From contig CAHJWM010000016.1 in NCBI GenBank assembly GCA_903642325.1, forward strand, positions 1-64,000: 64,000 nt of DNA, read 5' to 3'. A program made the translations under genes and the position numbers. This stretch comes from Myxococcales bacterium. Its GTDB lineage: Bacteria > Myxococcota_A > Polyangia > Polyangiales > Polyangiaceae. The notes beneath the pieces were generated by a model. That model worked only from the letters and a program-made list of their open reading frames with translations, had not been told where the DNA came from and made no database searches. Positions 19,136 through 26,303 of the stretch are shown here, piece after piece; the first letter of the stretch is position 1; each line of letters begins with the position of its first letter.

Positions 19136-21907
19136 ATGGACGGCCCTGGAACCGCGGTTAAGCTAGCGACATCGCAAGAGAATTTGCTTGGCGATCAGGA
19201 TGCGCTGCCGCGCCGCTTCGAGCGCTATACGCTCCTCAAGCGGATTGCGCGGGGTGGAATGGGGGAAGTGTTCCTGGCTACCGCGGGCGGCATCGAAGGC
19301 GCAGAACGCCCGTGCGTGGTGAAGGCCATCCGCCGTGAGCACGAGGCTGACCGCTCATTTTTAGCGCGCTTCTTGGATGAGGCACGCATTCAAGCGCAGC
19401 TCCAGCATCCGGGCGTAGCCCAGGTTTTGGAAGCGACCAACGATGCCACGAGCAAGCCCTACGTGGTCGTCGAGTTCATCGAAGGCCGGAACTTGGGCGA
19501 TGTGCGAGCCCGCGCGGGACAGCTCGGTCTACGCATGGGCTGGTTCGAGTCGATCGCCGTGAGCATCGTGCTGGCCGACGCGCTGGCTCACGTGCACGAG
19601 CGCCTGGACGCGAGCGGCAAGCCGCTCGACATCGTACACCGCGACCTCAGCCCACAGAACGTGATGGTGAGCTACGCGGGCGACGTCAAATTGATCGACT
19701 TCGGTACGGCGCGCGGGTTGAACCGCCGCTGTCAAACGATCGCCGGCATCGTGTTTGCGAAGCCGGGCTACGTTGCCCCCGAGGTCGCCAACAACACCCC
19801 GGGCGGCGTGCCTGCCGACCTGTACGCGCTCGGCATCATGCTCTGGGAGATGCTTGCCGGCCGTCGCTTCCTGTCCGGCGACGCGTCCGCGCACATGGCC
19901 GCCGTGGCCGCGGGCAAGCGCAATCCAACGCCGCTTGCGCCGCTGATCGGCGCGCCGGCCGAGCTCGACGTCGTGATAGCCAAGCTCACCGCGGTGAAGC
20001 TCGAAGACCGTTATGGCTCGGCCCGCCACGCCATGAACGACCTCGTGCGCCTGCTGCAACGCGCGCCGAGCATGGCCGATGGCGACCGCAGCGTGCGCGG
20101 GCGCATCGCGCAGCTGATGCAAAAGCTTTACCCCGCGGAGCCGGCTCGCACTCGCTCGGAGTTCGCGCGTTTGATCGCACAGGCCCGCGCCAGCGATGTG
20201 CCCGTGTCCGTCATCCCGCCGTCTCCCCCCACGCCGGCGGTCGAGCTCGATCCGACGCTTCTGTCGGGGACGCGTTATCGATTGCTGCGCGTTCTGGGCC
20301 GCGGCGCGATGGGCGTGGTGCACGAAGCATTGCACCTCGATCTGATGCGTACGGTCGCGCTCAAAGTTCTAGACCCCGAGCGCATGGGCCTGGAGGCGGA
20401 GCGCCGCTTCAAGGTCGAGGCGCGCGCCATCGCTCAGCTGGCGCACGAAAACCTGGTGAAGCTGTTCGAGTTCGGCGTCGCTCGAGACGGGCGCCCGTTT
20501 TACGTGATGGAGCTCTTGGCGGGCGAGTCCTTGGACAAGAAGCTCGAGCGCGAGCGGGGCATGGACTACCGCGAAGCCGTGACCATTGCGGTGCAGGCTT
20601 GTCGAGCCCTGGAGACGGCCCACGCGGCGCACGTCATCCATCGCGACATCAAGCCCGCCAATTTGTTCCTGTGCAACGACGGTACGCTCAAGCTGCTCGA
20701 CTTCGGCGTCGCCAAAGCAGCCTTCAATGTGGAGACCGACGGCGCAGGCCCGGAGCTCGTCGGCACTCCCGAATACATGGCGCCCGAGCAAGCGCGCGGC
20801 CAAGCCGATGAGCGCAGCGATCTATACGCGCTCGGCGTGGTTCTGTTCGAGCTGCTCTCGGGGCGCTTGCCTCACGAGGCGGACAGCCCCGTGCTCTTGC
20901 TCGACGCCAAATTCCGCACCCAACCTCAATCACTCCGAACCCTCATACCCGAAAGAGGAATCCCGAAAATGCTCGATGCAACCGTGTCCCGTGTGCTCAG
21001 CCCGGAGCCTGAACATCGCTATGATACCGCCGGGGAGCTCCGCGCCGCGCTCGAAGCGGCGTTGCAGGAGACCGCGCCGCGGCCGCGCCGGCAGCTGATT
21101 GCGCAGAGCGCAGCGGGGGTGTTGCTTCTAGCGTTGGTTGGCTCGCTGGCAGTTGGCGCCAGTAATCCTCGATTGCGAGAGCGGGCCGTGGCGGCGGTCG
21201 CGCCCATGCTGGAAAAGGGCGAGGAATGGCAAGCGCACCTGGTTGCGCGTTTGCGAGCAGCGCACGCTTCGAGCGCGGCGCTGGCGCCGGTCGCACCGCT
21301 CGCGCCACCAGCTCCCCCCGCGGCCATCGTCGCCAAGCTCGACGCGGCGGAGCTCAAGCTCGCGCCGACCGCCGCCCTGGCCGCGCCCGTCACCCTGGCC
21401 GCGCCCGTCGCACTGACCACTACCGCCGACGATGACGGCGAAGTCGAAGACGACTTGTCCGCGAGCACGGGCAACCCCGCAGAAGCAGAGCTCACGTCTA
21501 CGAGCGCGCCCGCGGCTACGGCCGAGCCAAGCACGCTCGGCGCGACCGCGATTGCAGAAGCAGACAAGCTGCGTTCCGCGGGCAACAAGTTGAAGGCGCT
21601 GAACGTCCTCCGCGCGGCCGCGAAAAAATCGCCCCGCGACGCCAAGGTGCTCGAGGAGCTAGCTCGCATGGCCGAGCAAAATCGCGCCTGGGGTGAAGCG
21701 GTGCGCAGCGAGCGGCGCGTCGTCGCCCTGGACGGCAGCACGAATTCGAAGCTCGAGCTCGCGCGTCTCGAGCGCAAAACGGGGCACCGCGGCCGCGCGC
21801 TCGAGCTCGTGCGCAACGTATTGAAAGACACACCGGATTCGCCGGATGCTCGCGCCATGCTCGCTCAACTCGGCGGCAGCGAGCAGCTCGCCCTGCGAAG
21901 TAAGTAA
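19136..21907 (+). CDS. Protein with two Ser/Thr kinase domains in tandem, transmembrane
   Basis: 923 aa. Kinase 1 (about 30-320) has ARGGMGEVF, VVKAIRRE, HRDLSPQN with His168, LIDFGTAR and GYVAPEV. Kinase 2 (about 385-650) has GRGAMGVVHE, VALKVL, HRDIKPAN with His502, LLDFGVAK and EYMAPEQ. Both keep the Lys, HRD and DFG residues, so both could be active. Kinase 1 uses HRDLSPQN, a common myxobacterial variant. A transmembrane helix at about 660-680 leads to an Ala/Pro-rich region and a TPR-like helical end (about 800-915). Two kinases on one cytoplasmic side could phosphorylate each other. No operon partner is obvious. Confidence 0.93.
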   Translation: MDGPGTAVKLATSQENLLGDQDALPRRFERYTLLKRIARGGMGEVFLATAGGIEGAERPCVVKAIRREHEADRSFLARFLDEARIQAQLQHPGVAQVLEATNDATSKPYVVVEFIEGRNLGDVRARAGQLGLRMGWFESIAVSIVLADALAHVHERLDASGKPLDIVHRDLSPQNVMVSYAGDVKLIDFGTARGLNRRCQTIAGIVFAKPGYVAPEVANNTPGGVPADLYALGIMLWEMLAGRRFLSGDASAHMAAVAAGKRNPTPLAPLIGAPAELDVVIAKLTAVKLEDRYGSARHAMNDLVRLLQRAPSMADGDRSVRGRIAQLMQKLYPAEPARTRSEFARLIAQARASDVPVSVIPPSPPTPAVELDPTLLSGTRYRLLRVLGRGAMGVVHEALHLDLMRTVALKVLDPERMGLEAERRFKVEARAIAQLAHENLVKLFEFGVARDGRPFYVMELLAGESLDKKLERERGMDYREAVTIAVQACRALETAHAAHVIHRDIKPANLFLCNDGTLKLLDFGVAKAAFNVETDGAGPELVGTPEYMAPEQARGQADERSDLYALGVVLFELLSGRLPHEADSPVLLLDAKFRTQPQSLRTLIPERGIPKMLDATVSRVLSPEPEHRYDTAGELRAALEAALQETAPRPRRQLIAQSAAGVLLLALVGSLAVGASNPRLRERAVAAVAPMLEKGEEWQAHLVARLRAAHASSAALAPVAPLAPPAPPAAIVAKLDAAELKLAPTAALAAPVTLAAPVALTTTADDDGEVEDDLSASTGNPAEAELTSTSAPAATAEPSTLGATAIAEADKLRSAGNKLKALNVLRAAAKKSPRDAKVLEELARMAEQNRAWGEAVRSERRVVALDGSTNSKLELARLERKTGHRGRALELVRNVLKDTPDSPDARAMLAQLGGSEQLALRSK

Positions 21908-23679: not shown

Positions 23680-24378
23680 TCAGTCGACCAGCGAACGGTA
23701 TTCTTCCGTCAGCATGAAGTCTTTGCCGAGGTTCGTGGCGCGCTCGCGCGCATAGTAGTCGCGAAATCGAAACTCGGCGCTTGCCTGACGCAGCAGGCCG
23801 CCTGCCAATGCATGCGCGTCCGCATCGCCTTGTACTGTGCTGACGGCGCCCGCGCGTTGATCGATCGCGATGCGAGTGGCAACGAACGCGTCGCTGATGG
23901 GCTGGGGCTGCGGGGCGTGCGAGAGGGCGATCACCGAAAGCAACTGTTGTTTGCTGCCGAACGTGAACCACAGGTTACGCGGGGGCGCGTAGGCTGTCTC
24001 ACCGCCGAGCGCGGAGCTCGGTACGCCATTGCAAGTCAGATCCGAATAGCCCTTGTCGGCGGCGCAGGTGATACCTTGCTTGCCGAGCTGTGCGATGACG
24101 TCGGCGCGCGTCGTACGATCGAGCTGGAAGCCGAGCGCGGGCCGGCTCGCGGCCCGCTGTGGGCCGCGATGATTCGCGGCAAAGTCAGAAGCGGCGCGCT
24201 CTCGCTGAGCCGGGCTCAGCGGTTTGTCATAGCCGAACGGGCAACCGCCGTGAGCCATCCGGGTCACGGCCTCCAGCACCGGGCGGCCCGCCGAGGTGTG
24301 CCCCAAGCCAACCAAAGTCACGGCGAGCGTGGTTGTACCAAGGCCCATCGCCAAAGCTCGAGCGAGAGCGCGTTTCAT
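23680..24378 (-). CDS. Exported protein of unknown function, coupled to the globin lipoprotein
   Basis: 232 aa. An N-terminal signal or anchor (LAMGLGTTTLAVTLVGLG) precedes a GGCPFGYDKP motif near residue 45. The rest reads as a mixed alpha/beta domain with three cysteines in all (GGCPFG, GITCAADKG, DLTCNG). The last two might form a disulphide. The start ATG (24376-24378) overlaps the upstream stop (TAATG), so translation is coupled to the globin gene and the products probably work in the same place. I do not recognise the family. Secreted or membrane-tethered. Confidence 0.65.
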   Translation of the reverse strand: MKRALARALAMGLGTTTLAVTLVGLGHTSAGRPVLEAVTRMAHGGCPFGYDKPLSPAQRERAASDFAANHRGPQRAASRPALGFQLDRTTRADVIAQLGKQGITCAADKGYSDLTCNGVPSSALGGETAYAPPRNLWFTFGSKQQLLSVIALSHAPQPQPISDAFVATRIAIDQRAGAVSTVQGDADAHALAGGLLRQASAEFRFRDYYARERATNLGKDFMLTEEYRSLVD

Positions 24379-24947
24379 TACTTGCCTACGATCGAGGCCA
24401 CGAAGGTTGGGTCTACGACTACGGGCGCGAAACAGCTCGTCACGTCGCCACTGGGTACGCCGCTGCTGGTCAGCGCAGGCACGATGATGCTGCTCACGAA
24501 GTAGTTGTATTGGTCGGCTGTGATTGCGAGGCCCACGTGGGCGGCTGTCATGTCCTGCAAACCCGAGTACGTCTTGCCGTCCGTATACATGATGCTGGTG
24601 GGGCCGCCGTAGGCGTACACCAGAAACGCAGCCAGCTTGCCCTCGAACGTCGCCGCATCGTCTGCGGTCGAAGGCGGCTTTCCCGACCCGATTTTCGTAA
24701 ACGAATCACCGAGCTTCGCCGTGCCATTGGCCTTGAGATCCGCGAACACGTTCGCAATAATCGCTTTGTTAACGGCCACGAAGCCAGCCGCCTGGTAGGT
24801 GTCCCACGCGTCCTTGCCACTGCTCGTGCACTTCAGCGCAGCGCCTGGGCCTTTACTTACGTTTTCGCCGTTCTTGTTGTCGGAATCGCTGCCGCAGCCC
24901 TGCAATGCCGCGAGCACGAGGCCCGCCGCCATCATATTCTTGATCAT
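24378..24947 (-). CDS. Lipoprotein with a truncated-hemoglobin (group 1) like domain
   Basis: 189 aa from the ATG at 24945-24947 (GGGACG upstream); a longer frame to 24998 would spoil the signal peptide. Lipobox LQGC with Cys18, then a Ser/Asn/Lys linker. Residues about 50-175 fit the 2-on-2 globin pattern: FEGKLAAFLVYAYGGP, then SGLQDMTAAHVGLAITADQY with the probable proximal His137, then FVSSIIVPALTSSGVPSGDV. The Tyr often seen at position B10 is not present. Two cysteines (Cys40 and one near 168) could form a disulphide. Truncated globins bind O2 or NO in the cytoplasm; a lipid-anchored one is unusual. Its coupled neighbour may share its role. Confidence 0.7.
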   Translation of the reverse strand: MIKNMMAAGLVLAALQGCGSDSDNKNGENVSKGPGAALKCTSSGKDAWDTYQAAGFVAVNKAIIANVFADLKANGTAKLGDSFTKIGSGKPPSTADDAATFEGKLAAFLVYAYGGPTSIMYTDGKTYSGLQDMTAAHVGLAITADQYNYFVSSIIVPALTSSGVPSGDVTSCFAPVVVDPTFVASIVGK

Positions 24948-25353: not shown

Positions 25354-26133
25354 TCACGAAAATTCGACCGACCCTCCCGCGCCAGTACAGCTACCCTCGC
25401 CATTCGTGAGCTTGCACGAGGTCGAGCCGTCCTTGGTAATGACCGTGAAGCTGCCGCTCTTGGTCGTGCTGTCCCACGAACCGTTCGCTTGAATCAGCAC
25501 ATTGCCGTCGCCTACATCGACGCTGTAGGTGGCAACGCCGTTGACCAATGCGTAGCTCAGATCGATTGATACTTTATCGCCGGGTGGCGTGACGGTCTCG
25601 GTCAAATGCTCCTTGTAGATGATCATCAGGGGCGGCGGATTGCTGATCTCCGCGTATTCCAAAGTTCCGTCCACGATGACGCTCGACGTGCCCGAACTGT
25701 ACTTGCAGTCGTCGTACGTGAGAGAAGACTGAGCGCCGGAGCCGTCCTGATTCGCGGAGCCACCGATCTTCACCGTTCCGCCACCATTACAGGCACAGGT
25801 CTGGGTCGTCGATCCGCCGCTCGGGGTGCCACACGCAAACGGCGCATCGTCCAGAACGTGGGCCCCCGGGCCTCGGCTGCCACCTAGCTTGGCAGACATC
25901 ACTTGGACACTGCTGCTCGCGTTCTGACCGTCGAGGCCGGCGATGATCGCCTTTTTGTCGCCCTTGCTGAGCGTGCCGCTCGGGTGCAGGTAAGCCTCAT
26001 GAAGGCCGCTGAAATCCGCACTCGGGCCCCCGCTCGGCTTATCGTCGCCACCGCCACAGCCCGTCGCACCGAGCGCAATCAGCGCCACCCCTAACCCAGA
26101 CCACACTCCCATACCACCATTGAACAGATGCAT
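25354..26133 (-). CDS. Exported lipoprotein of unknown function
   Basis: 259 aa. Two ATGs are adjacent (26131-26133 and 26134-26136); GGAGGT at 26139-26144 is 5 nt from the first and only 2 nt from the second, so I use 26133. A signal with lipobox GATGC (Cys26) is followed by Gly/Asp-rich spacer, then a beta-rich domain. That domain contains a Cys cluster (FACGTPSGG, QTCACNGGG) and further pairs (DDCKYS, SCKLTNGEGSC). No catalytic motif seen. The gene stands alone with its own terminator. Confidence 0.65.
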   Translation of the reverse strand: MHLFNGGMGVWSGLGVALIALGATGCGGGDDKPSGGPSADFSGLHEAYLHPSGTLSKGDKKAIIAGLDGQNASSSVQVMSAKLGGSRGPGAHVLDDAPFACGTPSGGSTTQTCACNGGGTVKIGGSANQDGSGAQSSLTYDDCKYSSGTSSVIVDGTLEYAEISNPPPLMIIYKEHLTETVTPPGDKVSIDLSYALVNGVATYSVDVGDGNVLIQANGSWDSTTKSGSFTVITKDGSTSCKLTNGEGSCTGAGGSVEFS

Positions 26134-26138
26134 CATTG

Positions 26139-26144
26139 ACCTCC
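26139..26144 (-). promoter_or_regulatory. Strong Shine-Dalgarno site before the lipoprotein start
   Basis: GGAGGT on the minus strand. Its spacing favours the ATG at 26131-26133 over the one at 26134-26136. Confidence 0.6.
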
Positions 26145-26303
26145 AAGGTTTAATCCCCAACATCACACTCGGCCTAATACGTTCACGACGCGCAAAACTT
26201 GCGCCTGTTTTTCAGGTCGAGTCTGGTCTTGAGCCTCAGGCGCAGACCTCTGTTGCCACTCAGCGGCATCGCTCACTGGCACGGTGTCACTTGGCGGCGG
26301 CAC

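Follow-up and report, generated by a model that had tools for sequence, protein, structure and literature searches.

The window, by which we mean the whole stretch of 64,000 nucleotides of DNA that was analysed, carries on its minus strand two overlapping genes, the first of which codes for a group I truncated haemoglobin with a lipoprotein signal and the second for a partner protein which is predicted to be anchored in the membrane beside it. Such exported globins are numerous in one phylum; the distal residues typical of the family are gone from them, and many are tied to this partner without a family. The pair, carried by bacteria related to the myxobacteria, is kept together across very diverse species and therefore globin and partner probably function as one unit. 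What is described below on the open reading frames, on the fold as predicted, on individual residues and on the conservation of the pair are results of computation.

The globin and its predicted lipid anchor

The globin gene (P0001, 189 aa) occupies 24378..24947 on the minus strand, with the ATG at 24947 and the stop codon TAA at 24380-24378. Its product begins with a hydrophobic segment and the lipobox ALQGC at the end of a lipoprotein signal peptide (24894..24947, minus strand; Cys18 codon 24896-24894), and this signal is followed by a short polar linker and the globin domain, approximately residues 40-189 (24381..24830, minus strand). The cysteine which a lipobox requires is in place, as the earlier note had read it, and P0001 is predicted from its sequence to be exported, lipidated and held by the anchor. 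A pattern rule, which is a rough one, picks up a hydrophobic stretch with a lipobox-like Cys in 40 of the 43 homologous globin ORFs. Cys40 and Cys172, a pair also seen in the close relatives of P0001, likely form a disulphide which clamps both ends of the domain.

Taken alone the sequence of P0001 is borderline. Against the Pfam family Bac_globin (PF01152) it gives E 0.052 and 14.2 bits, below the cut-off of 21, and its best PDB chain is trHbN with E 0.008. Its identity as a globin is settled by its relatives and by the model, because the family profile and the predicted structure both match group I truncated haemoglobins (trHbs). PF01152 is matched by 7 of 15 globin family members (best 4.8e-8), and a profile of 38 domains (alignment A4) reaches E 9e-21 at best against truncated haemoglobins of solved structure, almost all of which belong to group I. 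AlphaFold2 run on the A4 alignment gave a model of the globin domain (ma07b538436cc) with pLDDT 90.5 and pTM 0.85. It superposes on trHbN and Tetrahymena trHb, which are Foldseek neighbours too, with Z 14-15 and an rmsd of 1.7-2.0 over 115-117 residues, and the 18 best among the structure chains listed for the model are group I trHbs (Z 13.5-15.1). Its fold, its profile match and its F8 His make the domain of P0001 a group I truncated haemoglobin. Structure prediction had been proposed as a check of the fold; with a group I trHb fold at Z ~15 the globin stands, and the claim of a lipid-anchored truncated globin is borne out at the sequence level by lipobox, fold and family profile.

Truncated globins are usually cytoplasmic. 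The exported globin shares with the known group I trHbs (trHbN; M. tuberculosis HbN, Tetrahymena trHb) the 2-on-2 fold (Z 14-15), the F8 His and the GG before the F region, but it is lipid-anchored by sequence and has apolar residues at B10, E7 and E11 which replace Tyr B10 and Gln E11. The exported globins also add Cys pairs, a flexible tether, often tandem domains, and a fixed partner gene. Tandem proteins with two or more domains on one lipid anchor are seen at L007, L010, L013, L030, L035, L043, L053, L064, L065, L067 and L070. Cytochrome c' is likewise an exported haem protein with an apolar distal side, but it is a four-helix c-type cytochrome with covalent haem and not a globin. In the acylated animal globins, globin X and the N-myristoylated globin of C. 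elegans (PMC3176823, PMC3520999), a lipid also holds the globin on the membrane; they differ in being acylated at the N-terminus inside the cell, in having no such partner known, and in their unrelated lineage and anchoring mechanism. A search of openly licensed full texts, in which absence is no proof, found no bacterial lipoprotein or periplasmic globin, and a term search in the family-wide survey PMC4720485 found no bacterial lipoprotein globin. As far as the openly licensed papers searched go, the exported, partnered form of globin is undescribed.

The haem pocket

The proximal haem ligand of P0001 is predicted to be His137 (24537..24539, minus strand), which aligns with the F8 His of trHbN and, via the family profile, also with that of Tetrahymena trHb, so that the truncated-globin motifs with a proximal His137 were correctly recognised in the earlier note. 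This His is invariant in A4, and every one of the 69 homologous domains with export signal that were compared has it. Also invariant over the 38 domains of A4, the median pairwise identity of which is ~27%, are a Tyr directly preceding the F helix and a Met at the fourth position ahead of F8. The invariant F8 His argues for retained haem in the exported globins, and P0001 would bind its haem on His137.

The distal side differs from that of trHbN. Using the register of Tetrahymena trHb (Y25 = B10, Q46 = E7, Q50 = E11), the distal pocket of P0001 spans 24633..24758 on the minus strand with Ile64 at B10, Phe101 at E7, Lys104 at E10 and Leu105 at E11; the B10 Tyr is absent, as had been claimed, and CD1 was left out of the comparison because its register could not be placed. 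Among the 69 exported domains there is no B10 Tyr (0/69) and no E11 Gln (0/69). E11 is Leu, Phe, Val or Met, E7 is apolar, and all three positions are apolar in nearly all domains, the exceptions at B10 being a Glu aligned in one tandem subclade, where the register is uncertain, and a Thr in three domains. A comparison set of 20 other trHb-like proteins of the order, mostly without an export signal, has B10 Tyr in 10 and E11 Gln in 6. The exported globins thus differ as a class, because the comparison proteins often keep these residues and the exported set never does. In NO dioxygenases of the trHbN type Tyr B10 and Gln E11 hydrogen-bond the bound O2; judged by its residues, Ile64 at B10 and Leu105 at E11, P0001 does not belong to them, and none of the 69 domains has either the Tyr or the Gln. 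At L136, L151 and L153 there are truncated globins which show no export signal and have a residue other than Tyr at B10 (LYERLG...AHKGMNIS or similar); they are a type separate from the exported globins.

According to PMC4720485, E10 in trHbs is basic and supports the haem, highly hydrophobic distal pockets are predicted to release O2 at up to 10^4 per second, and a large k_off together with open tunnels predicts a role in storage or transport. E10 is Lys104 in the globin of the window and Cys in 29 of 38 paired domains. A Phe is found at the expected G8 position of the pocket, where it may narrow the ligand tunnels and so count against fast gas exchange. The extra Cys residues vary with the subtype of exported globin, in keeping with an oxidising compartment, where they could form disulphides.

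The partner and the conservation of the pair

The partner gene (P0002, 232 aa) lies at 23680..24378 on the minus strand (ATG 24378-24376, stop 23682-23680), and its start overlaps the stop of the globin gene by 1 nt in the TAATG of AAG TAATG AAA (24376..24380, minus strand). The N-terminus of the protein has positive residues and then a hydrophobic helix. In the model (pLDDT 91.0, pTM 0.78) the secondary structure places this helix at residues 2-26 (24301..24375, minus strand), and we take it as an uncleaved anchor; there are two further helices and two alpha/beta repeats, and the C-terminal part is mainly beta. Cys46-Pro47 (24238..24243, minus strand), the beginning of the motif C46-P47-F-G-Y, is invariant in the membrane-anchored form (33/33 in alignment A5), where the other invariant residues are Cys105, Cys116, Leu146 and Gly177. 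The pair Cys105 to Cys116 (24031..24066, minus strand) is likely a disulphide. As these two are near in sequence and expected to pair, Cys46 would be left unpaired; 32 of 44 partners carry three Cys, and Cys46 is then the lone one if Cys105 and Cys116 pair. The earlier note had pointed to the TAATG overlap and to an exported partner with CPFGY, and the overlap, the hydrophobic N-terminal helix and the motif are all there. Judged from sequence and model, the partner would be membrane-anchored and face the same compartment as the globin, leaving on the cytoplasmic side a short N-terminus of few residues without a signalling domain.

No match to P0002 was found in Pfam or NCBIfam, nor to the 14 partners which were also tried against Pfam, and the partner profile gave nothing meaningful among solved structures (best E 0.32). 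The best fold neighbour is YjgB/DUF4309 (PDB 4ygt) with a Foldseek E of 1.4e-3, an rmsd of 5.0 over 125 residues, 9% identity and a Z of 7.2, and a Z under 8 is in a range also reached by common arrangements and unrelated folds; we treat the neighbour as a lead and assign the partner to no family.

A search with the globin only gave hits in 3 of 59 genomes, the window's own included, and by itself would have suggested that the globin is rare. The partner as query was found in 12 of the same 59 genomes, and divergent lipoprotein globins adjoin it at those loci. When all 183 genomes of the order are searched, 35 have the partner and 73 the globin profile, a count which also takes in ordinary trHbs. 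There are 40 partner genes in this set: 37 follow immediately after a globin in the same orientation, one comes before its globin, one is convergent to it and the remaining one sits where a contig ends, and an exported globin adjoins all of them except this last (39/40). In 14 of 42 loci the start of the partner and the stop of the globin overlap by 1 or 4 nt, and in most of the others the two are no more than a few tens of bases apart.

A separate scan of named genomes guards against the selection bias of the partner search because it was led by the globin. It gave 18 loci with the partner at 17, the eighteenth being truncated where its contig stops. Among the taxa represented are Corallococcus exercitus, C. 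carmarthensis, C. interemptor, Kofleriaceae, Polyangiaceae and Bdellovibrio sp. qaytius, the last of which is outside the phylum of the others. It should be kept in mind that the 17 loci include a broken copy in C. interemptor and two or three genomes already in the order search. In the broken copy (L173:3992-4780) the globin frame reads into the partner and a deletion has removed the proximal His region; this fused ORF is a decayed copy, and no natural globin-partner fusion was recognised. Since 39 of 40 partner genes have an exported globin as neighbour and 17 of 18 globin-led loci contain the partner, the conserved pairing that the earlier note had suggested looking for is found, and the partner deserves to be called fixed. 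The distances of globin and partner are congruent (Mantel r 0.67, 0/5000 permutations as high), which we have not used as evidence of contact because joint inheritance alone would give the same.

Phylum-wide, the partner profile was found in 43 of 377 genomes. The strong matches again have the globin gene in front wherever the contig reaches far enough, apart from one convergent case (L062). The weak matches often have no membrane helix and no Cys-Pro and are lipoprotein-like themselves, and many of them precede exported tandem globins or are convergent to them (L064, L065, L067, L070, L114; others by coordinates). Since the association survives these changes of gene order, it argues that the two are linked in function and not just through a single overlap passed on by descent. 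At least nine of the weak relatives of the partner stand without an adjoining globin (10 kb was read for three of them, L111-L113), and most of the genomes concerned hold such globins elsewhere. In the other direction, exported lipoprotein globins of the same order were seen without a partner in the stretch read (L103, L104, L106, L107, L108, L109, L110), and in two genomes with such globins (G050, G101) no partner was detected genome-wide. Because exported globins without a partner occur, the partner is not required for every one of them; the association is strong when read from the partner and looser when read from the globin.

What the pair could do

The reading which fits best, and which we propose tentatively, is that the pair is a self-contained envelope module in which a tethered gas buffer or trap is docked or assembled by the partner. 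The two genes would be translationally coupled and make up one module of the cell envelope. The first product would be secreted and lipid-anchored, with the fold of a group I truncated globin and the haem on His137, and its wholly apolar distal side would lead to fast binding and release of small gases, not to the holding of O2 for NO dioxygenation. The partner, membrane-anchored in the same compartment, would dock the globin or help it to gain its haem and folded state, and the unit would act on the outer side of the membrane as a tethered buffer or trap for O2, NO or CO. The physical interaction of globin and partner, the exchange of gas and the partner's role are what we infer. Neither a conserved third gene or larger operon nor a regulator conserved next to the pair was found in the neighbourhoods of 20 loci and the window. 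The partner is unlikely to relay a signal alone, because it has few cytoplasmic residues and no conserved regulator nearby.

The partner could alternatively be a haem chaperone which, in the style of CcmE, holds haem crossing the membrane with its invariant Cys-Pro (and His27) and loads the exported apo-globin. We find this rather unlikely. Known haem regulatory motifs are built around Cys-Pro, and Cys46-Pro47 is invariant, with Cys46 as the probable lone Cys wherever a partner has three (32 of 44). CcmE serves an exported haem protein, in its case the c-type cytochromes, and has a single membrane helix and an outer beta-rich domain, a topology which the partner resembles; on the other hand the 14 partners searched in Pfam gave no match to CcmE, and no shared motif was recognised. 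The distant form of the partner (L064, L065, L067, L070) apparently has neither the helix nor the Cys-Pro and is still found beside exported globins, and some exported globins have no partner detected in the genome. Little is understood of how proteins that bind haem non-covalently acquire it once outside the cytoplasm, and with a fixed pair in cultured Corallococcus the question is accessible to experiment. A dedicated two-gene system for such a globin, in which the partner picks up haem at the membrane and hands it on to the lipid-anchored globin, is in our estimate quite unlikely; if true, it would answer how an exported b-type haem protein acquires its haem. Improbable, finally, is a globin domain which is haem-less or a purely structural envelope scaffold, the pair having an unrelated role, e.g. 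in envelope assembly. The sequence is very divergent, with P0001 under the Pfam cut-off, and there is a likeness between the partner and small envelope proteins which is limited to the fold, but the F8 His, the Tyr before the F helix and the Met four residues before F8 have stayed invariant over 38 domains despite the low median identity (~27%).

An apolar pocket may favour NO or CO over O2, for which cytochrome c' and soluble guanylate cyclase are the analogues, and with B10, E7 and E11 apolar in nearly all exported domains the pair might be a trap or sensor for NO or CO. We regard this as unlikely. In the 183 genomes copper nitrite reductase (TIGR02376) is found in 2 of the 35 partner genomes where 4.8 are expected, and NnrS (PF05940) in 13 of 35 where 12.4 are expected; the window's own genome has neither. 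A link to denitrification or NO by co-occurrence is rejected, as there is no association with TIGR02376 or PF05940 over the 183 genomes, but NO from other organisms could be a source despite these counts. A sensor is further disfavoured by a partner without an output domain and by the lack of a conserved regulator, and the sensor role which the earlier note had in mind is weakened by the partner having no cytoplasmic or signalling domain and by the missing adjoining regulator. From its proposal of a surface sensor or scavenger of O2, NO or sulphide, the lipid anchor, the fixed partner and the conserved pairing are kept, the sensor loses ground, NO tied to denitrification gains no support, and sulphide comes out neither stronger nor weaker.

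The genes around the pair were called by a GC3 rule, which is rough and misses some known genes. The only recurrent neighbours are Ser/Thr kinases (10/21 loci) and ABC transporters (5/21), neither of them fixed to the pair, and we put the recurrence of the kinases down to their abundance in these genomes. A ChrR-type anti-sigma-like cupin (L116:10609-11208) and an ECF sigma factor (L120:8525-9028) are neighbours at single loci, each with a relative in one other locus. In the window, a lipoprotein-like ORF with GATGCGGG near its start (25354-26166, minus strand) lies ~400 bases upstream of the globin and was not found as a conserved neighbour in the relatives, and an ORF of 923 aa at 19136-21907 on the plus strand codes for a single chain with two Ser/Thr kinase catalytic domains, one after the other.
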